A stretch of DNA of 64,000 nt from Ignavibacteriales bacterium (GTDB lineage: Bacteria > Bacteroidota > Ignavibacteria > UBA10030). Shown piece after piece: positions 10,067 through 28,118 of this stretch. The stretch covers positions 62,001 through 126,000 of the forward strand of contig JAPLFQ010000010.1 of the NCBI GenBank assembly GCA_026390595.1, given 5' to 3'. Position 1 is the first letter of the stretch. Each line of letters opens with the position of its first letter. The notes below the pieces were generated by a model. That model did no database searches. It was not told the DNA's origin and worked only from the letters and a program-made list of their open reading frames with translations. The translations under genes and the position numbers were made by a program.

Positions 10067-10198
10067 TCATCTCCTTTGAAATAGAATGAAGCCGCCGCCG
10101 ATCATCACCCCTACGGTTTGAGGTTTAGAGTGTGTCTTTGGCGGCTCCAGATTATTGTTCGTTCTGATACCATCTGCACTGATGCCGGTCTTTGTCAT
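10067..10198 (-). CDS. Small ORF overlapping ligase 3' end (43 aa)
   Basis: A 43-codon ORF beginning inside the ligase gene in another frame and ending just before the next tiny ORF. It has a polar N-terminal part and a short hydrophobic C-terminal segment (VGVMIGGGFILF) followed by two arginines. There is no convincing ribosome binding site. It would fill the otherwise empty gap after the ligase, but the evidence is only continuity and the membrane-like tail. Confidence 0.25.
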   Translation of the reverse strand: MTKTGISADGIRTNNNLEPPKTHSKPQTVGVMIGGGFILFQRR

Positions 10199-11054: not shown

Positions 11055-11062
11055 CGGCCAGA

Positions 11063-11338: not shown

Positions 11339-11452
11339 AGTTCTCCTCTCGTAAACTGGAAACGCCCCAACATTCAAAAGACAATGCAAGGCCGAGCTTG
11401 TCACTGTCCAAGCTGAATGAAGGAGCGTTTCGAATTGAATGGAAAAGGTGGG

Positions 11453-12421
11453 TTAGTTCTTGAGGTAGTCTTCGGCGAGAGAGAAAGCCCGTTGCTTGAG
11501 CTTTTCCCCAGACCCAAACCACATACTCTTCAGGCGTTTGCTCGGATCCTCTGTAGTGCTGACGTGATCCACCAGCTCGGTCACGGCATTGTATGCGCCG
11601 AACAGAGTGCCCCGGTGCATTGTTGCGTCGCGCTGTGTTGCGTGGATATCCAGGATCTTTTTGCGAAGGTTTTCTGTCCGGGTGTAGCTCTCCGCTTCCG
11701 GATTGTCCGGGATGAGTGTTTTCACATATTGCATCAGTTCACGGTCCGTGACCTTCCGAAGCGCCATTCGATTGAACACGAAATCTAGTTGCTGAAAGAG
11801 ATGATTCGTGAGCCCGAGTAGCTTGTGTGCTTCTTCCAGCTTAGCAGGAGCGGTTGCTGTGTGCTTTATCCGGACTTCCTGCTCGGTGCCAGCGAGTGCG
11901 ACTGAAAGTGTATTTTGGCATACTACTCTTACAGGACTGAGCTTTATTCGGATGTGAGAGCTGCCGTCATGAGAGTTATAGAGCAGCAGGTATTTCTCGA
12001 TCAGATCATTTGACTTGCCGACTCGTATGTATCCAGGCAGCTTGGCTAGCAACCAGATCTTTTCGCCCTTGCCCAAGACTCCTCCGGTGTGATAAATCGC
12101 CTCATCACGGTCGACCAACGGATCGAAGAAGCTGAACGCATCGCGATTCTGTACCGGCTCGTAACGTGAACCAACAACTCCTAGGACTGTACCTGTGTCC
12201 AAGCGAACAGTCGCGAAATGATCAGGCACCAAAACACTCTGCCGGCTGATCTTTGTGAACAGAGGTCGCTTGATCACGTTGTAGTCGAGTCCTGCTGCTT
12301 CGATTGCTTGTGCAGCTGTGGCAGGGTCTGCCAGTTTTCGGCCTAGGCGATGCCAGGGGGTTTCCCCAAAATAGAACATGCTGGCTTGACCTGATTTGCC
12401 GACATAAAGATTGTGTGCCAT
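11453..12421 (-). CDS. DUF932 phage/plasmid-like protein
   Basis: A 322-residue DUF932 protein. The N-terminal MFYFGETPWHRLGRKL, the central VGSRYEPVQNRDAFSFFDPLVD and the SPVRVVCQNTLSVAL motif are characteristic. The family is widespread in phages and plasmids, and its biochemical role is not established. AAAGGAAAC precedes the start. It sits between the PUR protein and the WGR/ligase pair in the same leftward operon. Confidence 0.9.
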   Translation of the reverse strand: MAHNLYVGKSGQASMFYFGETPWHRLGRKLADPATAAQAIEAAGLDYNVIKRPLFTKISRQSVLVPDHFATVRLDTGTVLGVVGSRYEPVQNRDAFSFFDPLVDRDEAIYHTGGVLGKGEKIWLLAKLPGYIRVGKSNDLIEKYLLLYNSHDGSSHIRIKLSPVRVVCQNTLSVALAGTEQEVRIKHTATAPAKLEEAHKLLGLTNHLFQQLDFVFNRMALRKVTDRELMQYVKTLIPDNPEAESYTRTENLRKKILDIHATQRDATMHRGTLFGAYNAVTELVDHVSTTEDPSKRLKSMWFGSGEKLKQRAFSLAEDYLKN

Positions 12422-13435: not shown

Positions 13436-16400
13436 ATGCCAAGTGAAGTGATAAAACCTAATATGATTTTGAAGGGCCCAGCATTTCCCGAGGCTGTCCA
13501 GGTCATTGCTGTGATTCCCTTGGGCGGGAACCAAAAAATCATAGGAAAAGGTCTTACTAGTGGGCTCGTCCGCGAATATGTTTTCAACGATGCTCAGATC
13601 AGTAAACTGGACGTTAGCCCCGAAAGACAACCCTTCGACGGTGACCCGAACAAGTTTCGTTTGGGTGTCGAAGCTCTGCGGCTTGGCTTGGCGTATGAGT
13701 ATGATCCCTACTTCACACTTTCGATTGCACGGGTGGATCCCTTGCCTCATCAGCTGGAGGCCGTTTACGATTATTTCATCAAGCTTCCCAGGATCCGGTT
13801 TCTTCTCGCTGACGATCCAGGTGCGGGCAAGACAATTATGGCAGGTCTTTTGATCAAGGAATTGAAGATCAGGGGACTCGTGAAGCGGACTCTCATCGTC
13901 ACTCCTGCCAATCTTTCCTTTCAATGGCAACGGGAACTCAAAGATAAATTCCGTGAGAATTTTGAAGTCATACGGAGTGATGTTCTTAGGGCTAACTACG
14001 GCAGCAATCCCTGGCAAGAAAGAAATCAAGTCATTACATCTGTCTCATGGGTGTCCCGCATAGATGATGCTCGTGAGAGCCTTCTGCGTAGCCACTGGGA
14101 CCTCATCATCGTTGATGAAGCCCACAAGATGAGCGCATACAGTTCGGACAAGAAAACGCTCGCGTATCAGTTGGGCGAATCGTTGTCCCAGATGACCGAC
14201 CATTTTCTGCTGATGACGGCCACTCCGCACAAGGGCGATCCCGAAAACTTCTGTTTGTTCCTCGAACTCCTCGACAAGGATGTCTATGGAGATGTCAAGA
14301 GTCTAGAAGAGGCGATGCGTCGCAATTCCGCCCCGTTCTATCTGCGTCGGGTAAAAGAAGCGCTAGTCAGCTTCCCCAATCCGGATACTGGGGAAGTGAA
14401 GACCCTTTTTACCAAACGGTTTGTCCAGACAACAGAATTCCAGATCAACAACGATGAGTGGGAATTCTATGATGCGCTTACAAGGTACGTAGAGGACCAG
14501 TCTATTAAAGCTGCTGCGGATGATACTTCCAGGGGGCGAGCTCTTGGCTTCACCATGGCTATGCTCCAGCGACGGTTCGCTTCCAGCATATCTGCCGTAA
14601 GAAAGACTCTCGAACGGATGAAATCCAAACGAGAGAGGATTCTCGCAGATCCGGAAGAATACAAAAGAGAACTCGTCGCGAAGCGTTTGCCGGAAGATTT
14701 TGATGATTTGCCTGAGGAAGAGCAGCAAGAAATTGTGGCTCAACTCGAAGACGTGGTCGCCTCCATCGATCCTAATGAATTGAGGGAAGAAATTCTGCAA
14801 TTGGGATTGCTTATCGACCAAGCGAGGATTCTCGAAAAGAAAGAAGTTGAATCAAAGCTCGTAAAGTTGAAAGAGGTTATTTCTGAAAACGGGGTCTTCA
14901 AGGATCCGAAGATGAAGGTCCTCATTTTCACTGAGCACAAGGACACGCTGGACTATCTGGTTGGAAAGCTTCAGGAGTGGGGCTTGTCAGTCACACAAAT
15001 CCACGGCGGGCTGAAGATCGGTGATCGAGATACGCCGGGTTCCCGCATATACGCAGAGAGAGAGTTTAAGGAACAGTGCCAGGTGATGGTAGCAACAGAG
15101 GCTGCCGGCGAGGGGATTAACCTGCAGTTTTGCTGGTTCATGATTAACTATGATATTCCGTGGAACCCTGTGCGCCTCGAACAGCGGATGGGGCGAATCC
15201 ATAGATATGGCCAGGAGAAAGACTGTCTGATATTCAATTTTGTATCCACGAACACAAGAGAAGGGCGTGTTCTTCAGAAGTTGTTTGAAAGGTTGAAGAA
15301 TATTGAAGATGACCTAGATCCTAAGAAAACAGGTAAGATCTTCAATGTTTTGGGCGATGTTTTTCCAGCGAACCAATTGGAAAAGATGTTGCGAGAGATG
15401 TACTCCCGCAATTTGACTGAAGAGGTGATTAAAAGTCGTATCGTTGATCAGGTTGACCCGAATCGGTTCCGCAACATAACGAATTCTACTCTCGAAGGAC
15501 TGGCTAAAAGAGAGTTGAATCTATCAGCTATTATCGGAAGATCTGCAGAGGCAAAAGAACGCAGGTTAGTTCCGGAAGTCATCGAGGATTTCTTTGTAAA
15601 ATCGGCTCCTCACTCGGGAATCCACCCAAAGGAATCAAGCAAAGGGTCCCATGTTTACAGAATAGGTCGCGTTCCGCGAACTCTGTGGCCAACCGGAGAG
15701 TTGCTTGAACCACGGTTTGGGAAGCTTGGGAGAGAGTACAAGACAATTGCATTCGATAAGGAGAAGTTGATTGCCGATCCGACTCTCGATTGGATCACCC
15801 CGGGGCATCCTCTTTTTGAGACTGTCCGTGAGGATCTGCTGGGTAGAGTTCTGCCCGATCTGAAGAAGGGGGCTGTGTTTTTCGATTTGAACCGATCTAA
15901 ACCGGCCTGCTTGGATATACTCTCTGCAGCTATTCGAGATGGACGCGGCAATGTGCTCCATAAGCGTTTGTTTGCAGTCGAATCGAGCGCGGGTGTTTCT
16001 GATATTCGGCAGCCAACCCTGCTCCTTGACCTCATTCCCGCGTTGCCTGGCTACTCTGTTCCAACTGACTCAACCCTGCCGGATATTAGCACAGTTGAAG
16101 CAACGCTCGTGGAAAAGGCTTTGTATCCTTTGTTAAATGAGGTATCTGAACAGCGTCGAAAGGAGACCGACGTAATCGCAAGGCACATCGAGATCAGTTT
16201 GAACGAACTCATAAACCGTCAGAATCTCCGCCTCGCTGAGTTGGTGCAAAGGCAACAGGATGGAGATGCATCACCTTTGATGTCGGCCAACATCAAGACA
16301 GTTGAAAATTGGTTGGACGAGTTGAACGGTAGATTGGAGAGGCGGCGAGAAGAGTTGGAGAAAGAGAGACATTGTGCCATAAGCGATATTGTCCATCAGG

Positions 16401-16840
16401 GACGGGCATGGATACTGCCCCACCCTGATCGATTGTCACCCGAGCTTGCTCCGATGGTGAGGGATGATGATGTGGAAAGGAGAGCGGTTCAAGAGGCAAT
16501 TAAGTATGAAGAAACGCGCGGTTGGATTGTCGAGAGTGTAGAGAAAGACAACCGAGGCTTTGACCTAATTTCAAGGCGACCCCACCCGGAAGACCCACAA
16601 ACAGCAATTGAAGTACGATTCATCGAAGTGAAAGGGCGCTCCGGCGTAGGTGAAGTTCTACTAACTGCCAATGAGTACAAGACTGCTGAACGCCTTAAGA
16701 GCGATTTTTTTCTGTATGTAGTGTTCAATTGTGCGGCTTCGCCAGAGCTCCATGTCATCGAGAATCCGGCGCGATTGAACTGGCAACCAATTATGCAGAT
16801 TGAGCAATATCATATCGGGCCAAGGGAATTATTCGAGTAA
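13436..16840 (+). CDS. SNF2-family helicase with C-terminal DUF3883 (DrmD-like)
   Basis: A 1134-residue SF2/SNF2 ATPase that would translocate on DNA. Walker A is LADDPGAGKTIM (about residues 124-135), the DEAH box is VDEAH (226-230), motif III is TATPHKGD and the second RecA lobe ends in RLEQRMGRIHRYGQ (about 580-593). A helical, charged middle is followed by a C-terminal DUF3883 nuclease-like domain (about 1020-1115, with IEVRFIEVKGRSG). This is the layout of DISARM DrmD and related anti-phage helicases. It is first in a plus-strand cluster running to about 28.1 kb, with 39 bases before the methylase gene. Defence is inferred from family and neighbours. Confidence 0.88.
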   Translation: MPSEVIKPNMILKGPAFPEAVQVIAVIPLGGNQKIIGKGLTSGLVREYVFNDAQISKLDVSPERQPFDGDPNKFRLGVEALRLGLAYEYDPYFTLSIARVDPLPHQLEAVYDYFIKLPRIRFLLADDPGAGKTIMAGLLIKELKIRGLVKRTLIVTPANLSFQWQRELKDKFRENFEVIRSDVLRANYGSNPWQERNQVITSVSWVSRIDDARESLLRSHWDLIIVDEAHKMSAYSSDKKTLAYQLGESLSQMTDHFLLMTATPHKGDPENFCLFLELLDKDVYGDVKSLEEAMRRNSAPFYLRRVKEALVSFPNPDTGEVKTLFTKRFVQTTEFQINNDEWEFYDALTRYVEDQSIKAAADDTSRGRALGFTMAMLQRRFASSISAVRKTLERMKSKRERILADPEEYKRELVAKRLPEDFDDLPEEEQQEIVAQLEDVVASIDPNELREEILQLGLLIDQARILEKKEVESKLVKLKEVISENGVFKDPKMKVLIFTEHKDTLDYLVGKLQEWGLSVTQIHGGLKIGDRDTPGSRIYAEREFKEQCQVMVATEAAGEGINLQFCWFMINYDIPWNPVRLEQRMGRIHRYGQEKDCLIFNFVSTNTREGRVLQKLFERLKNIEDDLDPKKTGKIFNVLGDVFPANQLEKMLREMYSRNLTEEVIKSRIVDQVDPNRFRNITNSTLEGLAKRELNLSAIIGRSAEAKERRLVPEVIEDFFVKSAPHSGIHPKESSKGSHVYRIGRVPRTLWPTGELLEPRFGKLGREYKTIAFDKEKLIADPTLDWITPGHPLFETVREDLLGRVLPDLKKGAVFFDLNRSKPACLDILSAAIRDGRGNVLHKRLFAVESSAGVSDIRQPTLLLDLIPALPGYSVPTDSTLPDISTVEATLVEKALYPLLNEVSEQRRKETDVIARHIEISLNELINRQNLRLAELVQRQQDGDASPLMSANIKTVENWLDELNGRLERRREELEKERHCAISDIVHQGRAWILPHPDRLSPELAPMVRDDDVERRAVQEAIKYEETRGWIVESVEKDNRGFDLISRRPHPEDPQTAIEVRFIEVKGRSGVGEVLLTANEYKTAERLKSDFFLYVVFNCAASPELHVIENPARLNWQPIMQIEQYHIGPRELFE

Positions 16841-16879
16841 CCAGACTCGCGGGCTCGCGACACACACTGATAGAATGAA

Positions 16880-19800
16880 TTGGATAGAAGCGTGGAATAC
16901 TGCAGACGATTAATTGAGGTCGACCTTCCAATAAAGCGGATATCTATCCACGCCCGACGGGAAAAATACATTGGAACTATTACTTCACTGCACCTATGGT
17001 GGGCGCGGCGACCGTTGGCCGCTTGTCGAGCCGTAATATGTGCAGCCCTCTGGCCCGATCCAGCGAGTGAGGGATGTCCAGTCGCGTTCATATCCAAAGC
17101 AAAAACGGAAATGCTTGCGTGGACTTCTCATGAGAGACAGGCTTTGCTGAGTGGCGAAAGTCGCAAACGGTTTGAGCAGGCTCGACAAAAACCTGCTCGG
17201 TTCGATGATCCGATGGAGCTGCGTCAAGCCTTGCTTGATTTCATCGCCGACTTTGCGAACTGGGACAACTCGAGGAAGAACGAATACCTTGGCACAAGTC
17301 GTGCGCTCACGCAATCTGCGCATGAGGCTCTTGGTGGTTCACTTGGCACTAGACCGTTGATAGTGGATCCATTCGCTGGTGGAGGTTCGATTCCTCTTGA
17401 AGCTCTAAGGGTTGGCGCAGATGCATTTGCAAGCGATCTGAATCCGATCCCCGTTCTCCTCAACAGGGTAGTTCTTGAATATGTCCCGAAGTACGGTCAA
17501 CGCCTCGTCGACGAGGTTCGCAAGTGGGGCGAGTGGATCTACAAGGAAGCCGAGAAGGAACTCGCCAAGTTCTACCCAAAAGACTATGACGGGGCAACTC
17601 CCATCGCCTATCTTTGGGCTCGCACGATCAAATGCGAGGGCCCGGGTTGTGGTGCGGAAGTGCCGCTGATCCGATCGCTTTGGCTGGCCAAAAAAAAGGA
17701 TCGATCCGTAGCACTACAACTTGTGCCAAAGCCAAGAGCGAAGCAAGTTGATTTTCAAATCATAGTCAAGAAAGGAAATGTTTGGGCTGATCAGAATAGT
17801 TCCAATACAAGAATCAAGGATCCGAAACTTGATGGCACAGTTAAGCGTGGGTCCGCGACATGCCCATGCTGTGGATTCACGACGCCTGTAACTCGTGTTA
17901 GGGTGCAGCTTAAGGCAAAAAAGGGCGGTGCTAACAGTGCAAGACTGATGGTAGTGGTCACGACGCAAGAGGAAAAAGCAGGGCGGACTTTTAGGCTTCC
18001 CAATTCGAATGACTTTCGATCTATAGACGCTGCTGAGATCAAACTGAGAACGGTCATATCACACTCAAAAAGTGTCCTAAGTTTTACACCCGAAGAACCC
18101 ACACCTCAGGGCGGTGGCAGCGGAGCAGGCAGAGCGTTTTCGCAACGCCATTATGGAATGGACACGTTCGCTGACTTGTTCGCTAGTCGTCAACTACTTA
18201 CACTGGGGCTTCTGGCGCAAGAGGTTCGGAAGGTTGGTGACAAGGTGCGCGAGAGTGATCGTTCGTTTGGAGACGTTGTTCAGACTACACTGGCCCTTGC
18301 CGTGAGTAGGGAAAGCGACCACTTAAACTCCGGCTGCTCATGGAATCCATCCGGACAAAAAATGCAACACCTTTATGCGCGCCAGGCAATACCAATTGTG
18401 TGGGATTTTTGTGAGATCAACCCTTTTGGCGGGTCGGTCGGCGATTGGCAATCTACAGTGGACTGCATAGTCTCAGCCCTTGAGGTGGCGAATTTTGACG
18501 CCAGCCCTGGAACGGCGTCGCAAGACTCGGCGCAGTCGCACTCATTACCAGACGGATCTGCTCACGCGCTAGTTACAGATCCACCCTACTATGATGCTGT
18601 CCCTTATGCTGATCTAGCAGATTTCTTTTATGTTTGGTTGAAGAGAAGTTGTCCGGGTTTCTGGCATGAACAGCTCACACCAAAAGATGACGAATGTATC
18701 GTCGACGAAGTGAAGGGTAAGGACACTGCCTTCTTTGTACGAACGATGAGGATGGCAATGACCGAAGCCCGGCGCATTCTTGCCCAGAATGGAATTGGTC
18801 TCGTCGTTTTTGCACACAAATCGACCTCGGGCTGGGAGGCGCAGCTTCAGGCAATGATCGACGCGGGCTGGACGATTACGGGCTCCTGGCCAATTGACAC
18901 AGAACTCGCAACGCGGCTCCGCGCCCGCGATTCTGCAGCGCTTGCGTCGTCAATTCATCTAGTTTGTCGTCCTCGTGAGACAATGAATGGTGCCAACTTT
19001 GCCAATGACATCGGAAATTGGCGTGATGTCTTGAGTGAGTTACCTGGCCGCATCCATACGTGGATGCCTCGATTAGCCGAGGAAGGTGTCGTCGGTGCAG
19101 ATGCGATTTTTGCATGTTTGGGTCCAGCGCTAGAAATTTTCTCCCGGTATGCTCGAGTCGAGAAAACCAGTGGTGATGTTGTGACTCTGGGAGAATACCT
19201 AGAAAACGTTTGGGCAGCAGTTGCCAAAGAAGCGCTCACCATGATATTCACAGATGCCGATGTCACAGGTTTCGAAGAGGATGCTCGACTCACTGCAATG
19301 TGGCTGTGGACGTTGCGCGGGGATGTGAGTATTGCGCTCGACGATGATGAAGAAGCGAGCGAGAATGACGATGAATCTGAAGGAATCAAGACAAGCTTAT
19401 CAGGCTATTTCTTAGAATATGACGCTGCGAGGAAGATAGCGCAAGGACTTGGTGCCCATCTTGAAAAGCTCGTCTCCTTGATTGAAGTGAAGGGAGAAAA
19501 CGCACGGCTTTTGCCGGTTGCTGAACGAGCATCATATCTTTTTGGAGTAAACGCTTTGGAGGCTGGCTCTCAGAAGAAGAAAACAGCCGACCAAGGTGAT
19601 TTGTTCGGTCTCCTAAAGCAAGCGGAGGAGTCCAAGCCAAAGCTCTCATTAGGGCGAAGTGTGGACGCCCAAGGAACTGTACTCGACAATTTACATAAAT
19701 GCATGATCCTCTTCGCAACGGGAAGGGGAGATGCAATGAAGCGCCTGCTTGTTGATGATGGATTGGGCAAGGATCAACGATTCTGGAAACTTGGCCAAGC

Positions 19801-19885
19801 GTTATCAGCGCTCTATCCAAAAGCCAGCGACGAGAAACGTTGGGTTGATGGTGTGATGGCGCGAAAAAAAGGACTCGGTTTCTAA
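16880..19885 (+). CDS. DUF1156-containing DNA methylase
   Basis: A 1001-residue DNA methyltransferase. The N-terminus is the DUF1156 signature (RLIEVDLPIKRIS.HARREK...LHLWWARRPLAACRAVICAALWPDP). The SAM motif is VDPFAGGGSIPLE (about residue 162) and the catalytic motif is TDPPYYD (about 566), roughly 400 residues later. The insertion carries two CxxC-type zinc ribbons (CEGPGCG; CPCCG). Such enzymes modify adenine N6 or cytosine N4. The start is TTG at 16880 with no strong ribosome binding site, probably coupled to the helicase gene. It likely marks self DNA for the helicase/DUF499 machinery, as in restriction-like systems; target site unknown. Confidence 0.9.
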   Translation: MDRSVEYCRRLIEVDLPIKRISIHARREKYIGTITSLHLWWARRPLAACRAVICAALWPDPASEGCPVAFISKAKTEMLAWTSHERQALLSGESRKRFEQARQKPARFDDPMELRQALLDFIADFANWDNSRKNEYLGTSRALTQSAHEALGGSLGTRPLIVDPFAGGGSIPLEALRVGADAFASDLNPIPVLLNRVVLEYVPKYGQRLVDEVRKWGEWIYKEAEKELAKFYPKDYDGATPIAYLWARTIKCEGPGCGAEVPLIRSLWLAKKKDRSVALQLVPKPRAKQVDFQIIVKKGNVWADQNSSNTRIKDPKLDGTVKRGSATCPCCGFTTPVTRVRVQLKAKKGGANSARLMVVVTTQEEKAGRTFRLPNSNDFRSIDAAEIKLRTVISHSKSVLSFTPEEPTPQGGGSGAGRAFSQRHYGMDTFADLFASRQLLTLGLLAQEVRKVGDKVRESDRSFGDVVQTTLALAVSRESDHLNSGCSWNPSGQKMQHLYARQAIPIVWDFCEINPFGGSVGDWQSTVDCIVSALEVANFDASPGTASQDSAQSHSLPDGSAHALVTDPPYYDAVPYADLADFFYVWLKRSCPGFWHEQLTPKDDECIVDEVKGKDTAFFVRTMRMAMTEARRILAQNGIGLVVFAHKSTSGWEAQLQAMIDAGWTITGSWPIDTELATRLRARDSAALASSIHLVCRPRETMNGANFANDIGNWRDVLSELPGRIHTWMPRLAEEGVVGADAIFACLGPALEIFSRYARVEKTSGDVVTLGEYLENVWAAVAKEALTMIFTDADVTGFEEDARLTAMWLWTLRGDVSIALDDDEEASENDDESEGIKTSLSGYFLEYDAARKIAQGLGAHLEKLVSLIEVKGENARLLPVAERASYLFGVNALEAGSQKKKTADQGDLFGLLKQAEESKPKLSLGRSVDAQGTVLDNLHKCMILFATGRGDAMKRLLVDDGLGKDQRFWKLGQALSALYPKASDEKRWVDGVMARKKGLGF

Positions 19886-19902
19886 TCATTCGAATCGGCG
19901 CT

Positions 19903-20478
19903 ATGTTCTCCAATGATTGGCGAAATGTATTTACGGAAGTCGTGAAAGGCGATAACCTTCAGGATCTCCTGCGAGTCGCCGCAACTTCGGGCAATCTGAC
20001 TGACTGGACGAGAGGTTTGACAACCGCCGTTGTGAAATCATTCCAAGGCATGGGGTGGGAGGCGAGCGCAAAAGGTAATAAAGCAACCATATTGCCAGTA
20101 GCGAGGAGTGAGTATCTTTCACTGGATGTAGTCGCCTTTCGGAGGAGCGACAAGCACTGGGCATTTCCCGTGGCGGTAGCTGAGCTAGAAAACAGTCGTG
20201 ATGAAGACAAGATTGCATATTCACTTTGGAAGGTCATGTGCATAAGAGCTGATTTCCGCTTGGTGTTCTGCTACCGTGATCAGGTATCGGAAATCCCTTC
20301 ACTCATTTCACATCTCAAAGAAAAAGTTGTCGGATCCATGGCATTGACCGACCGAGCAGGATTTAGCGGAGAAACAGTGCTCGTGGTGGGTCACAGAGGC
20401 GACGCAGAGATCTTTCCATATGGATATTTTAAGTGGTGGATATTAGATGCCAATACATCTTCTCTCAGCTTAATGTAG
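19903..20478 (+). CDS. Small protein of defence cluster, possible nuclease fold
   Basis: A 191-residue protein I do not recognise, 17 bases after the methylase and 11 before the DUF499 gene, so it is part of the same unit. The central part reads YLSLDVVAFRR...FPVAVAELENSRDEDKIAYSLWKV. An Asp on one strand, then a strand with Glu-Leu-Glu and a following helix, is compatible with a PD-(D/E)XK-like core but lacks the usual Lys. A structural or substrate-binding version is therefore equally likely. A role as a small subunit with the methylase or ATPase is inferred from position only. Confidence 0.55.
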   Translation: MFSNDWRNVFTEVVKGDNLQDLLRVAATSGNLTDWTRGLTTAVVKSFQGMGWEASAKGNKATILPVARSEYLSLDVVAFRRSDKHWAFPVAVAELENSRDEDKIAYSLWKVMCIRADFRLVFCYRDQVSEIPSLISHLKEKVVGSMALTDRAGFSGETVLVVGHRGDAEIFPYGYFKWWILDANTSSLSLM

Positions 20479-20489
20479 GAAAGCACGTC

Positions 20490-23408
20490 ATGAAACTAAG
20501 ACCATGGTACGATGTTGTGAAGCCTCGCTCAGACCTCAGAGAAGGCAAGCCTCTGGATGCAGCAGAGTTTGCGGTCCACCTTGACCAGGTGCGTGATGGA
20601 CGTGCTCCCGATGTGTATCAGAATCCCAAGGAGTTCTTTGAGCGCACTTACCTGACACAAAACTTGGCGGGACTGGCCGCAGAAGTGGTTCGACGTCTCA
20701 ATGGTGAGAGAACGGAAACGTCGGCTGTGTTTAATCTGGCAACACAGTTTGGGGGTGGCAAAACGCACGCTCTCACACTTCTATATCATCTAGCTGCCCA
20801 TGGCCCCGCTTCAAAGGAGTGGCCCGGCGTTAAACAAATCATTGAGAAATCGGGGATGCCAGATATCCCAAAGGCCGCTACTGCGGTATTTGTTGGAACT
20901 GAATTCGACTCCCTGACCGGAAGGGGTGGAAAAGATGGGAACCCTCTTCGGAAAACGCCGTGGGGAGAGATTGCCTTTCAATTGGGAGGTGCAGATGCAT
21001 TGGCTGTCCTTGCTGAACACGAAAAGCAGTTGATTGCTCCAGCTGGGGATGTAATTCGATTGTTTTTGCCGAAAGACAAGCCCTGTCTAATCCTTTTCGA
21101 TGAGGTGCTCAACTATGTGGGGCGAAATCGAAAATCCGGCCTGTCGGCCCAGCTCTTCACCTTCCTCCAAAACCTATCAGAAGAAGCACGTGGTCGGTCC
21201 AATCTGGTTTTGGTTGTTTCAATACCAAAGTCTGAAATCGAGATGACTCCCGAGGATCAATCAGATCATGAGCGGTTCAAAAACGTTTTGAATCGGTTAG
21301 GGAAGGCAGTCTTCATGTCTGCTGAAACTGAGACATCGGAAATTATCCGACGCCGATTGTTCGAATGGCACGGTCTACCCGAGGATGCGAACAAGACAAT
21401 TGCAGCATACGTTGAATGGATTAGTGCCCACAAAAAGCAGTTGCCGGATGATTTCGCAAAAGGAAAGATCCGAGATGAATTTGCAGCGACATATCCATTT
21501 CATCCTACGGTAATTTCTGTCTTCGAGCGCAAATGGCAAGCATTGCCGAGATTCCAACGCACACGAGGTGTTCTTCGCCTTCTGGCACTCTGGGTCTCAA
21601 AAGCCTATAGCGAAGGCTACAAAGGGGCACACAAAGATCCTTTGATCAGCCTGGGGACGGCTCCCCTCGATGATCCGATTTTCCGCGCAGCAATTTTCGA
21701 ACAGCTCGGTGAATCGCGACTTGAAGTCTCTGTAACTACGGATATTGTCGGAAAGAGCTCATCGCATGCCTCGCGTCTGGACGAAGAGGCCGTCCAAACC
21801 ATCAAAGACGCCAGATTACATCGCAAAGCCTCGACAGCAATCTTTTTTGAGTCCAACGGAGGGCAGGCGAGGACGGAAGCCACGATTCCGGAGATTAGGT
21901 TAGATGTAGCGGACCCAGATCTTGACATCGGCAATGTTGAAACAATCCTCGAAGCACTAACGGAGACGAGCTATTTTCTCAATGTCGACAAAAACCGATA
22001 TCGCTACGGTCTCACGCCCAATCTCAATAAGCTACTAGCAGATAGAAGGGCGAGCATTCAATCTTCACGTATTGACGAGAGAGTAAAGGCCGAAGTTCAG
22101 AAAGCTTTCCCCCCTGCCGCGGGTGTCGAAAGAATATTCTTTCCGGAAAAGAGCGGACAAATTTCGGACAGGCCAATCATCACATTCGTAATTCTTTCCG
22201 CAGATCAGTCAAGGACGGAACCTGGGACAGTTCCTATGATTGAGGCAATGACCCGGGATTGCGGGACTTCTGCACGCACATTTAAGAGCGCGTTGATTTG
22301 GTGTGTTCCGGAATCTGGGGATCTTATGAAAGAGGATGCCCGTAAGACCCTTGCTTGGGAAGACATTCAAGTAGAAGCTCAAGAACTTCAACTCGACGAA
22401 TCACAAACGCGTCAACTATCTGAGAATCTGAAGAAAGCGTTGCGCGACCTTCGAGAGAGCGCTTGGAGGACCTACAAGAATCTGTATTTGCTTGGGAAAG
22501 ATAATCAGATTCGTTTCATCGATCTTGGAATGATCAACTCAAGCGCCTCAGAGTCCATTATGTCTTATGTGATTAATCGCCTGCGACAGGATGATGAAAT
22601 CGTCAAGGATGTCAGTCCAACATTTCTTGTGAAGAATTGGCCTGGCGCGTTCAAAGAGTGGAGCACCAAGTCTGCTAGGGATGCATTCTTTGCATCACCA
22701 CAGTTTCCTCGCCTCTTGAATTCAGAAGCCATTAGGGAATCCATAACCAAGGGTGTTGAGAATGGCTATCTCGCATACGTTGGAAAGGACCCTAGCGGCA
22801 AGTATGATCCATTCTTCTTCAAGAAGGCTATGAGCAGCACGGAGGTAGATGTATCTGATCAGATGTTCATCATCACTGGAACAGAAGCAGAGAAGCACCT
22901 TGAACCGCCAAAACTAGTTTCCATTCAAATCCTGCCAGCCTATGCTCACCTAAAGCCGGGAGTGCAGCAAGCGTTCTCGGCAAAAGGAATTGACCAGCAC
23001 GGAAACGATTTAAAATTGACGCAGTCGTCCTGGAAGGCAACGGGTGGCCGCTTTATCGAGAATGAAGTTTTCGAGGCAGGGGAAAAAGAAGGTAACTATT
23101 TGATCACGGTGTCTTGTGGGGTGGTCTCCGCGACAGCACAGGTTGTCGTCTCGAAGGAGGAGACTCCCCCTCCACAGCCGCCGCCGGCTACCGGCGTGGC
23201 TACACTCCGCTGGTCCGGAGAAGTACCTCCGCAAAAGTGGATGAACTTCTATACCAAAATATTGGCAAAGTTCGTGTCTGGAAAAGGACTAAAACTTTCC
23301 GTCAATTTCGATGTGGCTCCTGAGGGAGGGGTTTCTACGCAACAGGTAGAAGAGACCAAAGTGGCCTTGCGTGAAATTGGGCTCGATGACAAGCTGACGG
23401 TCGAATAA
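20490..23408 (+). CDS. DUF499 P-loop ATPase of anti-phage type
   Basis: A 972-residue ATPase. The N-terminal LRPWYDVVKPRSDLREG and the Walker A variant NLATQFGGGKTHAL (about residues 83-95) are diagnostic of DUF499; Walker B is LILFDEVLNYV (about 198-208). The C-terminal region (after about 800) is beta-rich with a Pro-rich linker (PPPQPPPA) before a last small domain. The track-length frame begins at 20433, but the family N-terminus and AGGAAAG support 20490. DUF499 genes are commonly found beside DUF1156 methylases in defence islands, where they are thought to power DNA recognition or translocation; mechanism unproven. Confidence 0.88.
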   Translation: MKLRPWYDVVKPRSDLREGKPLDAAEFAVHLDQVRDGRAPDVYQNPKEFFERTYLTQNLAGLAAEVVRRLNGERTETSAVFNLATQFGGGKTHALTLLYHLAAHGPASKEWPGVKQIIEKSGMPDIPKAATAVFVGTEFDSLTGRGGKDGNPLRKTPWGEIAFQLGGADALAVLAEHEKQLIAPAGDVIRLFLPKDKPCLILFDEVLNYVGRNRKSGLSAQLFTFLQNLSEEARGRSNLVLVVSIPKSEIEMTPEDQSDHERFKNVLNRLGKAVFMSAETETSEIIRRRLFEWHGLPEDANKTIAAYVEWISAHKKQLPDDFAKGKIRDEFAATYPFHPTVISVFERKWQALPRFQRTRGVLRLLALWVSKAYSEGYKGAHKDPLISLGTAPLDDPIFRAAIFEQLGESRLEVSVTTDIVGKSSSHASRLDEEAVQTIKDARLHRKASTAIFFESNGGQARTEATIPEIRLDVADPDLDIGNVETILEALTETSYFLNVDKNRYRYGLTPNLNKLLADRRASIQSSRIDERVKAEVQKAFPPAAGVERIFFPEKSGQISDRPIITFVILSADQSRTEPGTVPMIEAMTRDCGTSARTFKSALIWCVPESGDLMKEDARKTLAWEDIQVEAQELQLDESQTRQLSENLKKALRDLRESAWRTYKNLYLLGKDNQIRFIDLGMINSSASESIMSYVINRLRQDDEIVKDVSPTFLVKNWPGAFKEWSTKSARDAFFASPQFPRLLNSEAIRESITKGVENGYLAYVGKDPSGKYDPFFFKKAMSSTEVDVSDQMFIITGTEAEKHLEPPKLVSIQILPAYAHLKPGVQQAFSAKGIDQHGNDLKLTQSSWKATGGRFIENEVFEAGEKEGNYLITVSCGVVSATAQVVVSKEETPPPQPPPATGVATLRWSGEVPPQKWMNFYTKILAKFVSGKGLKLSVNFDVAPEGGVSTQQVEETKVALREIGLDDKLTVE

Positions 23409-23503
23409 GGTCTCGTCACCAAAACCTAGATCATGCTCTGTAAATAGTCTGCTCCTGACTACATTAGCCAATGTCCATCACATTCTTGTGGAGATAAGAC
23501 CCT

Positions 23504-24253
23504 ATGCCGAGCAAGCGCGAGTCAATCAGAAAGAAAGCCATAGAATTGCTGAAGGCCAATCCTGAAGGCCTTCGCTGGACGGAACTCCTCAAAGGGTTGC
23601 AAAAGGCATTGCCGGACATTGTGCCAAAGACTATCGCAGGCAGTACTTGGAATTTGGACTTGGTAGCACCCGATCAAGTATACAAACCTGCACGAGGTCT
23701 CTGGAAATACAAGGGGAAAGAAACTGATGAGGTGGTCGAAGAGGTTGTCGTCCCGGCCAGCGTAAAGGAAGAAAACTTCTACGCGCCATTTGCTGAGTGG
23801 ATCAAAAATGAGCTCGGTGAATGTACCGAAGCCGTTGCCTTTGGTGGCAATTCTCTGAGCAAGAAATGGGGAACACCAGATGTGATAGGTGTCTATCGCC
23901 CGAGAAAGCGGGATGTCGTACAATTCGATCCTGAGGTTCTTTCGGCCGAAATCAAAGTGTCGGCGCAGGACCCGACTACGGCATTTGGTCAGGCGATAGC
24001 TTATAGATTGTTCAGTTCGAAGGTTTATATCGTGGAACCGGTCACTTTGAGTCCGGCAGATCTCGACAGACTTGAAGCGCTATGCTTGTTGTTTGGCGTT
24101 GGCTTGGTTCTATTCACACCCGATATCCAGAATCCGAATTTCACCATTCGAACACGAGCCCAGAAGTACAATCCGGACATGTTTTGGGTAAACGAGTTTG
24201 CGGATAAGCTCTATTCTGTGAACAAAGATGCTTTCAGCCTTTTGTTTGGTTAG
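23504..24253 (+). CDS. Winged-helix / PD-(D/E)XK nuclease-like protein
   Basis: A 249-residue protein with two parts. Residues 1-70 look like a HARE-type or winged-helix domain (IRKKAIELLKANPEGLRWTELLKGL...GSTWNLDL). Residues 95-220 carry a clear nuclease core: WGTPDVIGVYRP, then VLSAEIKVSA, then AFGQAIAYRLF. The Asp, Glu-x-Lys and Gln match the PD-(D/E)XK active site, so this is the best candidate for the DNA-cutting subunit of the cluster. GGAGATAAG precedes the start. It lies 95 bases after DUF499. Target specificity is unknown. Confidence 0.7.
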   Translation: MPSKRESIRKKAIELLKANPEGLRWTELLKGLQKALPDIVPKTIAGSTWNLDLVAPDQVYKPARGLWKYKGKETDEVVEEVVVPASVKEENFYAPFAEWIKNELGECTEAVAFGGNSLSKKWGTPDVIGVYRPRKRDVVQFDPEVLSAEIKVSAQDPTTAFGQAIAYRLFSSKVYIVEPVTLSPADLDRLEALCLLFGVGLVLFTPDIQNPNFTIRTRAQKYNPDMFWVNEFADKLYSVNKDAFSLLFG

Positions 24254-24379
24254 AATGGGTTCAATGTCGAGGAGTTTCTCCTTGTGATGCCAATTCTATC
24301 TTGGTTGTCAATCTAACGCGTTACTATGTTGAACCAGCTGTGTTGATTAAGTGCCGTCTCTAATATGGCGAGATTCTAA

Positions 24380-25009
24380 TTGGATAAACCGACGATATTC
24401 ACTGTAGGACACTCGACTCACACCTTGGAGTATTTTCTAGAGCTTCTGCAAGCTCATTCCATCAATTGTCTCGTTGATGTGAGGAGTGTTGCAGCAAGCT
24501 CATACAACCCGCAGTACAATAAGGACATCCTATCACATTTCTTGGATGAACACAGTATCATTTATATGCACTTTGCCGAGGAATTCGGTGCCAGACATTC
24601 TGAACCCGAACTCCTCGATGAAGATGGGAAAGTCGATTTTGACAAGGTAAGGGAGACAGAGGCATTCAAGCGTGGTGTAGTGAGGATAAAGCAAGGGGTA
24701 GATAAAGGATACATCATTGCTTTGATGTGCTCTGAGGCAGAGCCATTCGATTGTCACCGATTTTCTATGGTGTCAATAGCCTTGGATCGGGAGGGGTTTG
24801 ACGTCATTCACATATTGAAAGACAAGACTACAAAACGTAACGCTCAATTGGAGAACCAACTGCTCAAGAAATACGACAAGAAAATCCCGAAGCCCGATAT
24901 ATTCGAACCAGATGTTACCCTTGATCAACAATTGGCGGTTGCGTATAGGCTGCGGAACAAGGACATCGCATTTTCTCCATTCGACAAAGAAACTGAAGAG
25001 GGAGCATGA
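24380..25009 (+). CDS. DUF488 family protein (first copy)
   Basis: A 209-residue DUF488 protein with TVGHSTHTLEYFLELLQAH..CLVDVRS near the N-terminus and MCSEAEPFDCHR at about residue 115-126. The conserved CSE...CHR suggests a nucleotide- or metal-related active site, but the family function is not settled. The start is TTG at 24380 without a strong ribosome binding site. An upstream gap of 126 bases separates it from the nuclease-like gene, so it may begin a second transcription unit. Its stop overlaps the next DUF488 gene as ATGA. Confidence 0.8.
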   Translation: MDKPTIFTVGHSTHTLEYFLELLQAHSINCLVDVRSVAASSYNPQYNKDILSHFLDEHSIIYMHFAEEFGARHSEPELLDEDGKVDFDKVRETEAFKRGVVRIKQGVDKGYIIALMCSEAEPFDCHRFSMVSIALDREGFDVIHILKDKTTKRNAQLENQLLKKYDKKIPKPDIFEPDVTLDQQLAVAYRLRNKDIAFSPFDKETEEGA

Positions 25010-25446
25010 TCAAACTGTTCACTATCGGATTTACAAACAAATCAGCAGAGAAATTTTTTGGCCTTCTGACCAAGAACGGTGTCAGGAAAGTTATTGATAC
25101 CCGCTTAAACAATGTGTCACAACTCGCCGGTTTTTCGAAAGGATCCGATCTTCAGTTCTTCCTTTCACAGATTGGAGACATCAATTATGAGCATAGGATA
25201 GACCTCGCCCCAACGAAAGAACTACTCTCGGGTTATCGTGCAAAAGAGATGACTTGGGCCAATTATGAGGAACAATACCTCAAGCTGTTGAAAACAAGAG
25301 ACATTGCGGGCAAGATGGTATTCGAGGGGTTGGATAAGAGTTGCCTGCTGTGTAGCGAGCATGAACCGGACAAGTGTCATAGAAGATTGCTCGCAGAGTA
25401 TCTTCAGTCCCTTCGCAATGATATCGAAATAGTTCACCTAAAGTGA
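25006..25446 (+). CDS. DUF488 family protein (second, shorter copy)
   Basis: A 146-residue DUF488 protein: LFTIGFTNKSAEKFFGLLTKNGVRKVIDTRL at the N-terminus and LLCSEHEPDKCHRRLLAEYL near the C-terminus. It is clearly related to the preceding gene but shorter and diverged, so this is an old duplication or two separate subfamilies. The start overlaps the upstream stop (ATGA) and GAGGGAG serves as ribosome binding site. The dual-OB gene follows after 12 bases. DUF488 and DuOB proteins occur together in many genomes, which implies a common function that is not yet named. Confidence 0.82.
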   Translation: MIKLFTIGFTNKSAEKFFGLLTKNGVRKVIDTRLNNVSQLAGFSKGSDLQFFLSQIGDINYEHRIDLAPTKELLSGYRAKEMTWANYEEQYLKLLKTRDIAGKMVFEGLDKSCLLCSEHEPDKCHRRLLAEYLQSLRNDIEIVHLK

Positions 25447-25458
25447 GTAACCACCCGC

Positions 25459-26103
25459 ATGCCTACTAAGTTTGTTTGTCTCGCGAATTCATACAAGGAG
25501 GGAGGGCGTTGTCTAGCAGGGATTGAGATTGATAATCACTATAATGCGGTCAGGGATCGTGGGAGGCCGAAATGGATCAGACCGATTTGCAACACTCAAC
25601 ACGGTCAGGTTCCTACAGGTCTGGTACAGGGGCTGAACGTTCTGGATATTCTTGGCGTGCAGGTCACGCAGAGGCTGAACAATGGATATCAGTCAGAGAA
25701 TGTCTACTTCGATGAAAAATCGCTGGAAAGAACTGGCGTCTTCAATAAAACGCTGCTCAATAACCTATGTTCAGACCAGACTAAGATATTTGGAAACTAC
25801 GGGAAGGCGGTAGCACCTGACGCCATAACCACTCTTTCACATTCACTGATGTTCGTCAAACTATCAGTTTACGAGGTTATCGAGCGAACATATTCAGATT
25901 CTCCTGGACGAGCTCAGGTCAGGCTTGTCTTCAAGTATTACGAACATACCTACGACCTGCCAGTGACGGATCCACAATTCCTGCATAAGTACAAATTAAA
26001 TCCGGATGTTCTGACAGGTGTTCGTGAACTATTCATTACTCTGTCCCTTGGGGTCCTTCATCAAGGGTGGTACTCTAAACTGGTCGCCGCAATAATATGG
26101 TAA
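25459..26103 (+). CDS. Dual-OB (DuOB) domain protein
   Basis: A 214-residue protein whose N-terminus KFVCLANSYKEGGRCLAGIEI...RPKWIRPI matches the dual-OB domain signature: a first strand FVCLANS, GGRCLAG, then WIRP. The second half has VYFDEKSLERTGVF and a C-terminal strand-rich region. OB folds bind nucleic acids or nucleotides, and this family is often paired with DUF488. It follows the DUF488 genes closely and its stop overlaps the ACP-fusion start as ATGGTAA, so translation is coupled. Ligand unknown. Confidence 0.65.
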   Translation: MPTKFVCLANSYKEGGRCLAGIEIDNHYNAVRDRGRPKWIRPICNTQHGQVPTGLVQGLNVLDILGVQVTQRLNNGYQSENVYFDEKSLERTGVFNKTLLNNLCSDQTKIFGNYGKAVAPDAITTLSHSLMFVKLSVYEVIERTYSDSPGRAQVRLVFKYYEHTYDLPVTDPQFLHKYKLNPDVLTGVRELFITLSLGVLHQGWYSKLVAAIIW

Positions 26104-27224
26104 ACAACTGTCGGGAGCGAATTTTGGAGGTTGTTCCCAAAATGCAGCTTCAGGATATTGATAGTCCTGTCCGTCAAACTGGCCTGGATAGTCTCGATTT
26201 GGTGGTTGTGAGGGTTACGTTGGAAAAGGATTTTGGGCTGGAGATTCCTGACGGGGATTGGTTCGGGTTCGATTCGATTGGGGAGGCAATCCAGTATTGC
26301 GAGCAGATGGGATCTCACCGAGAGATTTCTCAACATATTGATCAACCACCTTCTCTTGCCAGGAAATATTCGATCAACATGCCCCAGATGGCCATATCGG
26401 GCTTGTCGGAAAATTGGCTATTCAAAGAATTGGGGGATATACACTGGGACCTTCTGTTTCGAGGATTGGGCAAATGTTCCAGCGAAGTAGTTGACGAGGA
26501 TGGCAACAGGCTCTATGCCACATTCGCACGTATCCAATTCTGCTCAGCTTCGCTTAGCGCCTACAAGGAGAATGACGAAATCACGATCGATGCGGCTATT
26601 CGACGTTTCGGCAAAGGTACTTTCGTATCTGAGGCAGCGCTAAAGAATACCCGAATTGCTCTAGAAGCCAGACTCATGACTTGTTTTGCGTCAAGGGAAA
26701 TGACTGACAACACGAAATTGTTGAAGTGTCAGCCATCCGAGCAGATCAGAGGGATACCTGAATATGCTACGACCCCGGAGTTCCTGAATGAGTACCGTTT
26801 GATCAAGAAAGGACTATCGGATCAGATCGATATTGCTGGTCATTCATTTAGAGTTGGCGATGACTATATCTACGAGCGCGAATACACTCTGAATCCTTAT
26901 TATGACCTCAATGGTGTGGGTTTGCTCTACTTCGCATCTTATCCCGTGATCGCTGACTTTTGTGAATCTAAGTACTTCAACGGTGGCCATGGGTCATCAA
27001 GGTGGGAAACAGATTATTCGACGAGTTGTCGTGACGTTCACTATTTTGCGAACTGCAATATTGAGGACTCGATCATATTCCGACTCAATAGCCATGACAG
27101 CGTAGCGGATGGGAAAGTGAAGTCTGCATCATCGCTCTATCGAAAAAGCGACATGACTCTAATGGCGAGAATCTTCACGGTCAAAGATCGCGAACAAGGA
27201 AGGCACCAAACCAACGAACACTGA
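26097..27224 (+). CDS. Acyl-carrier domain fused to LnmK/Pnap_2097-type hot-dog enzyme
   Basis: A 375-residue fusion. Residues 1-75 are acyl-carrier-like with VRQTGLDSLDLVVVRVTLEKDFGLEIPDGDW; the Ser of GLDSLD would carry phosphopantetheine. Residues 90-370 resemble LnmK/Pnap_2097 biosynthetic proteins (NMPQMAISGLSENWLFKELGDIHWDLL..., DDYIYEREYTLNPYYDLNGVGLLYFASYPVIADFCE), hot-dog enzymes acting on carrier-bound acyl groups. LnmK itself is an acyltransferase/decarboxylase. Such a gene is unexpected between DuOB and unknown genes of a defence cluster. It may work with the SDR/aldolase operon 18 kb upstream or modify a cluster component; both are inference. Confidence 0.7.
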   Translation: MVNNCRERILEVVPKMQLQDIDSPVRQTGLDSLDLVVVRVTLEKDFGLEIPDGDWFGFDSIGEAIQYCEQMGSHREISQHIDQPPSLARKYSINMPQMAISGLSENWLFKELGDIHWDLLFRGLGKCSSEVVDEDGNRLYATFARIQFCSASLSAYKENDEITIDAAIRRFGKGTFVSEAALKNTRIALEARLMTCFASREMTDNTKLLKCQPSEQIRGIPEYATTPEFLNEYRLIKKGLSDQIDIAGHSFRVGDDYIYEREYTLNPYYDLNGVGLLYFASYPVIADFCESKYFNGGHGSSRWETDYSTSCRDVHYFANCNIEDSIIFRLNSHDSVADGKVKSASSLYRKSDMTLMARIFTVKDREQGRHQTNEH

Positions 27225-27316
27225 AGGTCGAGAATGTGGAGTTAGGGTGTGGTTTGATTCTGCCCTGTGCTCCTCTGCAGAAGATACGGATATGCCAACC
27301 ATGAAGAGACATCGCA

Positions 27317-27886
27317 ATGCCTGAAGTGATGACTTGGGAAGATGTCGGCCCGGTTGCCCAGAACGCCCTTAATGTCTGGGTCGGAGGAGCTGAGCAGCGA
27401 TGGGCTGAAAGGGCTTGGGTTGCCATCTTAGACGCGGGTCTGGCAGAATACTCGACTGAGCTAGAGCGTCATAAAGTTGGTCTTCGTTTCATTTCTCTTT
27501 GCGACATATATCTTGATTTCTGCAAGGTGGGACGTGAGGAAGAATGTGAGTCGGACTATTCCGCGTGGATTGCAGATCTTGGCTTTTCGGATTTTATCCT
27601 CGGAGTTCTAATCGGTCGCTCGAAGGATATCGATGACAATGATATCGAGGATTATGCCTCCGATGATTTGATCCGGGTTCTGGCGTCAAGCGTTCGGGAA
27701 GAAGTGGTTACGGCGATTACCAAAGGACTTGGAGGGCGCAACGGCCTATTTGAATCCCTTTGGTTGAGTCGATTCGATGAGAAAGAGACGGTTGACGAGG
27801 AACGTGATTCCGTGTTTACAGAACTGACTGGAGACAAGATGGCTCTCTGGTCTTGGATTGATCAAGGCTGCTACCCGTATCGGTGA
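27317..27886 (+). CDS. Acidic protein of unknown function
   Basis: A 189-residue acidic, mostly helical protein I do not recognise. The composition is rich in Asp/Glu and Trp (MTWEDVGPVAQNALNVWVGG near the start). A conserved-looking C-terminus WSWIDQGCYPYR and a DDNDIEDYASDD acidic stretch near residue 110 stand out. AAGAGA lies nine bases before the start. It is 92 bases after the acyl-carrier fusion and in the same direction, so it may be the last or next-to-last gene of the cluster. It could be an immunity or inhibitor-type protein because of its charge, but nothing specific supports that. Confidence 0.5.
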   Translation: MPEVMTWEDVGPVAQNALNVWVGGAEQRWAERAWVAILDAGLAEYSTELERHKVGLRFISLCDIYLDFCKVGREEECESDYSAWIADLGFSDFILGVLIGRSKDIDDNDIEDYASDDLIRVLASSVREEVVTAITKGLGGRNGLFESLWLSRFDEKETVDEERDSVFTELTGDKMALWSWIDQGCYPYR

Positions 27887-27932
27887 TGATTCTCGACAAA
27901 TAACAGACTACTGAAACATCAATGAGGCAACA

Positions 27933-28118
27933 ATGGAAGAAGAGCAAAAGGAAGTAGGGCCTACGTTTGGTGAATATCAGGGCAAGCCGATCATACGCAT
28001 CCCAACCGTCGACAAGCCAAATCCCGATACCACCTGGCATTGGATGTCGTTTGGAAAGAATAAAGCGAAAGCGATCGTGAAGTATTTTGATTCGATAAAG
28101 AAGTTTGCGGAAGAATGA
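27933..28118 (+). CDS. Small conserved-looking protein (61 aa)
   Basis: A 61-residue protein with an acidic N-terminus, GKPIIRIPTVDKPNPDTTWHWMSFGKNKAKAIV in the middle and an amphipathic basic helix at the end. The 'IRIP...SFGxxKAKAI' pattern resembles short uncharacterised bacterial proteins. A GAGGCAACA element precedes the ATG. A hairpin (28158-28197) follows, so it likely ends the cluster's transcript. Confidence 0.55.
   Translation: MEEEQKEVGPTFGEYQGKPIIRIPTVDKPNPDTTWHWMSFGKNKAKAIVKYFDSIKKFAEE

Follow-up and report, generated by a model that had tools for sequence, protein, structure and literature searches.

A four-gene cassette joining a DUF488/DUF488/DuOB triad to an acyl carrier-LnmK fusion lies beside an Hma system in an Ignavibacteriales genome

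Hma was first proposed as a candidate system of a helicase, a methylase, and an ATPase (accessible text of PMC8565338), and it was later grouped under the DUF499-centred systems related to bacteriophage exclusion (BREX), where a C-terminal PD-(D/E)XK nuclease is present in the type-1 helicase of 79% of type-1 taxa (accessible text of PMC12839542). LnmK, an enzyme of leinamycin biosynthesis, decarboxylates with an Asn on a loop (accessible text of PMC8666670). PDC-M45, made up of one DuOB and two DUF488 genes, is listed by PADLOC as a candidate defence family, and no paper naming it was found in a literature search made without most subscription papers. The DNA analysed here (hereafter the window) is a stretch of 64,000 nucleotides from an Ignavibacteriales bacterium (GCA_026390595.1, contig JAPLFQ010000010.1, positions 62,001 to 126,000), and is part of a 204-kb contig in a 4.77-Mb genome. 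It holds, side by side in a variable region, two independent modules: an Hma system (13436-24253), which is an already known and ordinary type of system, and a four-gene cassette (24380-27224), which is a variant form, not previously described, of the uncharacterised PDC-M45 candidate family. What is new is a branch of DUF488/DUF488/DuOB triads coupled to acyl-carrier genes, and the genes of its representative in the window, one of them encoding an acyl carrier protein (ACP) and another predicted tandem oligonucleotide/oligosaccharide-binding (OB) folds, are as follows.

24380-25009, + strand: DUF488-B (PDC-M45B), cassette gene 1, with a CSE...CHR motif (PF04343 74 bits; PDC-M45B 179.2 bits)
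25006-25446, + strand: DUF488-C (PDC-M45C), cassette gene 2, with a CSE...CHR motif (PF04343 75.3 bits; PDC-M45C 204 bits)
25459-26103, + strand: DuOB (PDC-M45A), cassette gene 3, tandem OB-like (PF22557 148.6 bits; PDC-M45A 113.8 bits)
26097-27224, + strand: ACP-LnmK fusion, cassette gene 4, with an N-terminal ACP (PF00550 31.5 bits) and an LnmK domain (TIGR04098 155.1 bits, cut-off 100)

Judging from its sequence, the ACP-LnmK protein is probably a self-loading acyl carrier module. Its profile matched the LnmK structures 4hzo and 6x7l; Ser32 of the ACP (DS motif) is kept in all 13 aligned proteins having an ACP, and Tyr140 (GNRLYATF) and Asn272 (NGVGLLYFA) of the LnmK domain are invariant in 14/14 aligned proteins. 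Both residues align with 4hzo and 6x7l, the stretch around the Tyr at a low score (2.7 bits), and we take the Tyr aligned with Tyr140 to be the catalytic Tyr62 of LnmK. LnmK works together with an ACP. Compared with the leinamycin enzyme, the cassette protein has the same LnmK domain with aligned Tyr and Asn, whereas it is fused to its own ACP and is encoded beside DUF488 and DuOB genes instead of polyketide genes.

All three PDC-M45 models were matched by the triad of the window, and likewise by the triads of loci L031, L131, and L024. DuOB and two DUF488 genes are thus what the cassette has in common with PDC-M45, whereas its order is B-C-A, most other triads examined being ordered A-B-C, and it adds a fused or adjacent ACP or acyl-loading gene that matches no PADLOC model. 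We assume that DUF488 is a cysteine-using enzyme superfamily; the motif C-[S/A/V]-E...CHR, kept in 24/24 DUF488-B and 24/24 DUF488-C copies extracted (window included), is consistent with active enzymes of that kind, and a Protein Data Bank search with DUF488-C gave no match up to E 1. The predicted structure of DuOB resembles tandem-OB single-strand DNA binders, at modest scores. Indeed, with an AlphaFold model built from 5 sequences (predicted local distance difference test, pLDDT, 71.8), Foldseek returned baculovirus LEF-3 as the best match (E 9e-4, the only one under 0.001), followed by RPA and HIN-200 proteins, the template-modelling score being about 0.37 by query. A second-look aligner found OB proteins with modest Z values, 6.7 at most, in a list where many kinds of OB proteins, tRNA synthetases, and superantigens score alike, and which therefore supports an OB fold and not a specific ligand.

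The cassette recurs in other genomes. When one genome per species was scanned with the ACP-LnmK alignment, 37 loci were obtained, and the same four genes in the same order were found in L031 (Ignavibacteriales), L033 (Prolixibacteraceae), L034 (Chitinophagales), and L035 (Paludibacter), at 41-71% identity and, window included, with spacings of -8 to 53 nt. A fifth further cassette, with the same genes and order, came from the DuOB search (L133, genome G529); its ACP-LnmK gene (L133:10632-11677) is split over two reading frames, which is either decay or an assembly error.

DuOB (PF22557) was detected in 11/395 genomes of the phylum, 10/391 of the class, 4/98 of the order, and 4/80 and 1/54 in two families, in searches that overlap (the phylum, class, and 4/80-family sets include the window where it belongs). 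Two DUF488 genes accompany it in 7/10 of the other phylum genomes, one having a single DUF488 and two having none, and at 8/9 of the other loci of the class search. A tree of 23 triads was built from the three aligned proteins. It leaves out L114 (one DUF488, DuOB broken) and L026 (no B copy), and the count of triads leaves out L118, L119, and L138, which have a DuOB match and no DUF488 by our own profiles; sequences met more than once were counted once (L123 and L139 belong to the genome of L031, L004 and L028 to the contig of L032, and L140 is contained in L141).

In this tree twelve triads form one branch with support of 94/97 (95/94 without L137), and all twelve are ordered B-C-DuOB; since L112 and L113 have the order B-C-A outside the branch and without ACP, that order alone is not diagnostic. 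Six branch loci have ACP-LnmK (the window, L031, L033, L034, L035, and L133). Furthermore, L131 and L132, of one genus, have a stand-alone ACP of 73-75 aa with the DS motif, identified in L131 by PF00550 (31.1 bits) and in L132, which has no Pfam or NCBIfam match, by blastp to the ACP end of the window protein (E 9e-7). At L137 (186-3530) an FkbH-like gene (TIGR01686 107.6 bits, cut-off 146.65; HAD-IIIC 57.6 bits, cut-off 35.75) ends directly before DUF488-B, followed by DUF488-C and DuOB. FkbH is a glyceryl-ACP loader that differs from LnmK in fold and substrate; L137 thus has an ACP-loading type of enzyme adjoining its triad, scoring under the cut-off of FkbH itself, with no ACP seen on a contig that begins just upstream, and it is possibly a version of the cassette with another loader. 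Finally, the triad of L141 (5351-9396, - strand) lies downstream of genes for an AMP-ligase C-terminus, a weakly scoring ACP (PF00550 16.6 of 20.8 bits; own profile E 4e-7), and a class I/II aminotransferase. A second aminotransferase-like copy was seen by eye at L141:378-1643.

An acyl-carrier-related gene therefore adjoins 10/12 triads of the branch and 0/11 of the other triads on the tree (Fisher p 7e-5), where the 0/11 rests on our own ACP, LnmK, and FkbH profiles within three frames, with ligases and other loaders not sought and only a short stretch available in L111 and L120. The 10/12 is biased by L031, L033, L034, and L035, which were found through LnmK; restricted to loci from the DuOB search, the counts are 7/9 against 0/9, and 6/8 against 0/9 without the window (p 0.002 both), the 0/9 including L114, which is off the tree. 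These p-values ignore common descent and the clustering sits in one lineage, so that the argument rests on the different loaders within the branch. In brief, the triad branch is here repeatedly linked with acyl-carrier genes, and the cassettes have one clade of ACP-LnmK.

This clade comes from a tree of 35 LnmK domains, comprising 34 of the 37 loci and the window (L042, L059, L066, and also L133 were left out), in which the window, L031, L033, L034, L035, and L032 group together with support of 95/84. L032 lies at a contig edge, where only a DuOB-like tail, not in one clean frame, precedes the gene; it is likely a member of the cassette set. The next relative is L030 (92/84), whose ACP-LnmK gene has as neighbours a gene resembling hexapeptide acetyltransferases (97.6 of 243 bits with the WbbJ model) and one that by eye is a glycosyltransferase; other relatives look like the starts of giant proteins, which by eye we take for polyketide synthases. 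Since the relatives stand in surface-sugar and polyketide contexts, the acyl-loading device seems, on these sequences, to have been acquired once from one such chemistry. The whole ACP-LnmK protein matched 124/395 genomes of the phylum, and among the matches listed all but those of the window and of G358 (L004, the same gene as L032) are short or weak and at the ACP end. Among plasmids there were matches in 54 records, one of them with one place covering at least 80% of the query; in the single record examined, the match lies in a sugar-gene region. In L041, L044, L047, and L055 we also observed what appear to be proteobacterial three-domain fusions of a hexapeptide acyltransferase (assigned by eye), ACP, and LnmK, perhaps self-loading enzymes of surface-sugar acylation.

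A viral origin of the cassette was considered and rejected: the window DuOB alone, as a close-relative query, had no relative in viral_contigs and no match in phages, and the ACP-LnmK alignment had no relative in viral_contigs.

On these grounds we favour, with a probability of roughly 0.45, the reading that the two modules are independent and that the cassette loads an acyl group through ACP-LnmK for transfer by DUF488 to a nucleic-acid target held by DuOB. The LnmK domain would decarboxylate a (methyl)malonyl thioester, passing from the coenzyme A (CoA) thioester through an ester on its Tyr, and would load the acyl group onto the ACP to which it is fused. From there the group would pass to the conserved cysteines of one or both DUF488 proteins, which would attach it to a nucleic acid (or nucleotide) bound by the tandem-OB DuOB. 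The first steps (Tyr ester, decarboxylation, acyl-ACP) follow known LnmK chemistry, while we infer the DUF488 transfer and its target. A role in defence is suggested by the PADLOC candidate listing, by triads near genes of type III clustered regularly interspaced short palindromic repeats (CRISPR) systems (L024) and of a cyclic-oligonucleotide-based anti-phage signalling system (CBASS; L027), and by Hma next door.

Several observations weigh against this reading. The structural scores of DuOB are modest, and PDC-M45 is a database candidate only. Within the branch, genome G655 contributes two triads without an ACP gene (L134 and L135), and no LnmK match was found in that genome; at L141, where the ACP scores below the Pfam cut-off, the genes may form an operon for lipid synthesis that is adjacent by chance; and FkbH is a single case, under its curated cut-off, at a locus whose very long branch (3.94) makes its placement in the tree unsure. 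Moreover, by eye and with the neighbours not run against family libraries, no known defence system lies beside L031, L033, L034, L035, or L133, the neighbours recognised being a toxin-antitoxin-like pair at L133 and a Fic-like gene at L035.

A wider version of the favoured reading would have the whole branch use carrier-protein chemistry, with acyl groups passing via interchangeable loaders (LnmK, FkbH, and others) to ACP, then to a DUF488 Cys, and then to nucleic acid on the tandem-OB protein, such phosphopantetheine-dependent acylation either marking self or attacking nucleic acid of an invader or of the cell; we regard it as rather unlikely. No paper linking DUF488, DuOB, PDC-M45, or anti-phage defence with LnmK or carrier proteins was found in a partial literature search, made without most subscription papers. 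The cassette offers a concrete way into a candidate defence family that is uncharacterised: if the DUF488/DuOB core uses acyl-ACP, an in vitro assay of its chemistry would need four small proteins and a CoA thioester, and polyketide-type loading enzymes would be linked to nucleic-acid modification and possibly to immunity.

The acylated target might instead be a sugar, a lipid, a protein, or a small molecule, with DuOB only a binding platform, as could be expected from the neighbours of L030, the nearest ACP-LnmK outside the cassettes, and from the apparent hexapeptide transferase-ACP-LnmK fusions of several proteobacterial relatives. By Pfam and NCBIfam, none of the four cassette genes encodes a hexapeptide transferase, ketosynthase, or glycosyltransferase, and the likeness of the DuOB model to single-strand DNA binders points the other way, so we consider such a target unlikely. 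A module that modifies nucleic acid or tRNA in a housekeeping or niche role, and not in defence, would fit the cassettes of L031, L033, and L034, which lie by eye among ordinary genes, and the sparse occurrence of DuOB at the level of the order fits any mobile trait; it is set against by the PADLOC listing and by the triads near CRISPR type III and CBASS genes, and we judge it quite unlikely. Lastly, ACP-LnmK could be a passenger that was acquired once and kept by chance, the triad working without acyl carriers. Triads without ACP are indeed common (11 of the 23 triads of the tree, all outside the branch, and in addition L134 and L135 within it), but two different loaders and stand-alone ACPs occur within one triad branch, and the aligned Tyr, the Asn, and the Ser of the ACP are all kept, which makes a passenger improbable.

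The independence of the cassette from Hma was examined in both directions. In the stretches examined around the cassettes of L031, L033, L034, L035, and L133, the sequence upstream being short in L033 and L035, no Hma genes were found. Searched as whole genomes, one of the six behind L030-L035 has HmaC (that of L032, on another contig), and those of L031, L033, L034, and L035 have no match anywhere, the search of G529 not having covered the whole genome. Among the triad and cassette loci tested, the only Hma match was a weak one to HmaA (28%, E 2e-4), located within a very large SNF2 gene at L025. Conversely, 20 HmaC regions were drawn from the 34 other phylum genomes with an HmaC match, 15 of them holding at least 2.3 kb downstream of HmaC and the other five 1 kb or less, and none gave a tblastn match to DUF488, DuOB, LnmK, or the accessory genes g191 and g249 described below; six close plasmid relatives had no DUF488, DuOB, or LnmK match either. 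That the 3' genes serve the Hma core as accessories or effectors in one extended defence system, as a sequence-only reading had proposed and as the same strand, the short gaps, and the same variable region would favour, is therefore very improbable, already largely refuted, and rejected here. The refuting condition that the same reading had set speaks against a single system; yet the 3' genes are no chance neighbours, as four of them make up a separate conserved module. For the 189-aa gene that follows, tblastn found no counterpart in any of the cassette or triad loci tested, and its sole match among plasmids (30%) is in Peptoclostridium, amid genes for phage structural proteins; we take this gene as a neighbour and count it to neither module. 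The remaining genes of the cluster are the following.

13436-16840, + strand: HmaA, SNF2 helicase with a C-terminal NOV_C domain (PADLOC HmaA 629.5 bits)
16880-19885, + strand: HmaB, DUF1156 DNA methylase with a DPPY motif (PF06634 64.3 bits; PADLOC HmaB 382.3 bits)
19903-20478, + strand: g191, 191 aa, a small gene belonging to this Hma branch, which by eye looks nuclease-like (D...E-x-E-N)
20433-23408, + strand: HmaC, DUF499 AAA+ ATPase (PADLOC HmaC 399.4 bits; PF04465 71.4 bits)
23504-24253, + strand: g249, nuclease-like accessory by eye, with a winged-helix-like N-terminus and a TPD...E-x-K motif
27317-27886, + strand: 189-aa gene, neighbour of both modules
27933-28118, + strand: 61-aa frame

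All genes named in the sequence-only reading, the 61-aa frame included, are real open reading frames of the + strand, and the domain names it had given were confirmed with Pfam, PADLOC, and NCBIfam (SNF2 plus NOV_C, DUF1156 methylase, DUF499, two DUF488, DuOB, ACP-LnmK). The defence-system check it had called for, made with PADLOC profiles, matched the Hma core and the PDC-M45 candidate triad. Its statement that the genes run with overlapping starts is true of DUF488-B/DUF488-C (4 nt) and DuOB/ACP-LnmK (7 nt), whereas gaps of 95, 126, and 92 nt precede g249, DUF488-B, and the 189-aa gene. The listed start of HmaC also overlaps g191; most HmaC homologues listed align only from about residue 15-22 (exceptions being H33 from 9, H37 from 13, and H38 from 2), and the true start may therefore lie downstream of g191, near 20490. 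A consensus scan of the stretch for promoters and terminators gave no signal above shuffles.

By sequence, genes 13436-23408 are an Hma system, alias type-1 BREX-related, with the conserved 191-aa gene and an accessory nuclease-like gene. HmaA, HmaB, and HmaC are encoded together, and it is with these models that the three proteins score best in PADLOC. Pfam domains of HmaA are Helicase_C, SNF2-rel_dom, and NOV_C (residues 1013-1108, 63.8 bits), and D...EVK was read in the translation of its C-terminal domain, a predicted nuclease. NOV_C is presumably the DUF3883 region, and we take it to belong to the PD-(D/E)XK-like superfamily. The assignment to type 1 is made because NOV_C lies at the helicase C-terminus and because, among the ten proteins, neither a stand-alone DUF3780 nor a helicase HKD nuclease of type 2 was found (Pfam, E up to 0.1), nor a PglZ of type 3 or BREX itself (Pfam, PADLOC, NCBIfam). 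Compared with Hma (accessible text of PMC8565338) and type-1 BREX-related systems (accessible text of PMC12839542), the window shares the helicase with a C-terminal PD-(D/E)XK-like domain, the DUF1156 methylase, and the DUF499 ATPase; its additions are g191, which separates the methylase and ATPase genes, and g249, which follows the ATPase gene. In such a system the methylase, whose DPPY motif was seen in the translation, would mark self DNA, the DUF499 ATPase would assemble on foreign DNA, and the helicase-nuclease would cut it, with g191 and g249 as nuclease-like accessories. A second DUF1156 match above the cut-off lies in the same genome (G000:C6:119065-119235, a 63-aa frame), probably a methylase fragment.

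The same reading had described the core as restriction-like defence related to the defence island system associated with restriction-modification (DISARM) without being canonical DISARM, which stands, the core now having a name. HmaA scores 445.2 bits with the DrmD and 232 bits with the DrmA model of PADLOC, both below its 629.5 bits as HmaA, and its NCBIfam DrmD score (361.5 of 610 bits) is under the cut-off; no DrmB or DrmC match is among the rows listed for the ten proteins (for HmaA the best 25 of 63 PADLOC rows), and the locus thus lacks the drmA, drmB, and drmC genes by which DISARM is recognised. NCBIfam does have anti-phage families for DUF1156 and DUF499, and the window proteins score far below their equivalog cut-offs (207.3 bits against 1000 for DUF1156, and 120.3 bits against 1200 for DUF499).

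HmaC relatives occur in 35/395 genomes of the phylum, that of the window included, and in 134 plasmid records, of which the seven closest (51-57% identity) are all cyanobacterial. Six of these seven were examined: five have helicase and methylase matches at 50-66% identity, and in L145 the helicase match is weaker and the methylase was not matched within the stretch examined. HmaA is 64-66% identical, in the best segment, to the helicases of the cyanobacterial plasmids L089 and L146-L149. The same slot between the DUF1156 and DUF499 genes is filled by a homologue of g191 (48% identity) on a plasmid of Planktothrix pseudagardhii, and g191 is counted to this Hma branch for that reason; its single-sequence AlphaFold model is poor (pLDDT 45) and the fold not usable. 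In L146-L149 this slot holds small genes annotated as nucleotidyltransferase, HsdR-like/type I restriction, Uma2, and VapC-like, and some hypothetical ones, and the position appears, in the cyanobacterial plasmid Hma loci, to be one where accessory genes are exchanged. For g249, tblastn found nothing in the six cyanobacterial plasmid relatives, and no family of Pfam, PADLOC, or NCBIfam was matched. A Novosphingobium plasmid (L090) carries a homologue (39% identity) immediately after the gene of an Eco57I-type methylase, and because both copies retain TPD and E-x-K (EIK), g249 is read by eye as a putative accessory restriction-type nuclease.

Phage- or plasmid-type genes flank the cluster on both sides (10152-12421, - strand, and 31729-34146, + strand), namely an ATP-dependent DNA ligase, a DUF932 protein, and a primase fused to a DnaB-like helicase, so that the region may be an integrated mobile element. 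Further along, a Type IIG-like restriction-modification protein (40627-43683, - strand) combines an Eco57I methylase with an HSDR_N-like N-terminus and a TaqI_C specificity domain. A DUF6602 protein is encoded at 872-1639 (+ strand), and a gene with the same DUF6602 annotation stands beside the CBASS genes near the L027 triad.

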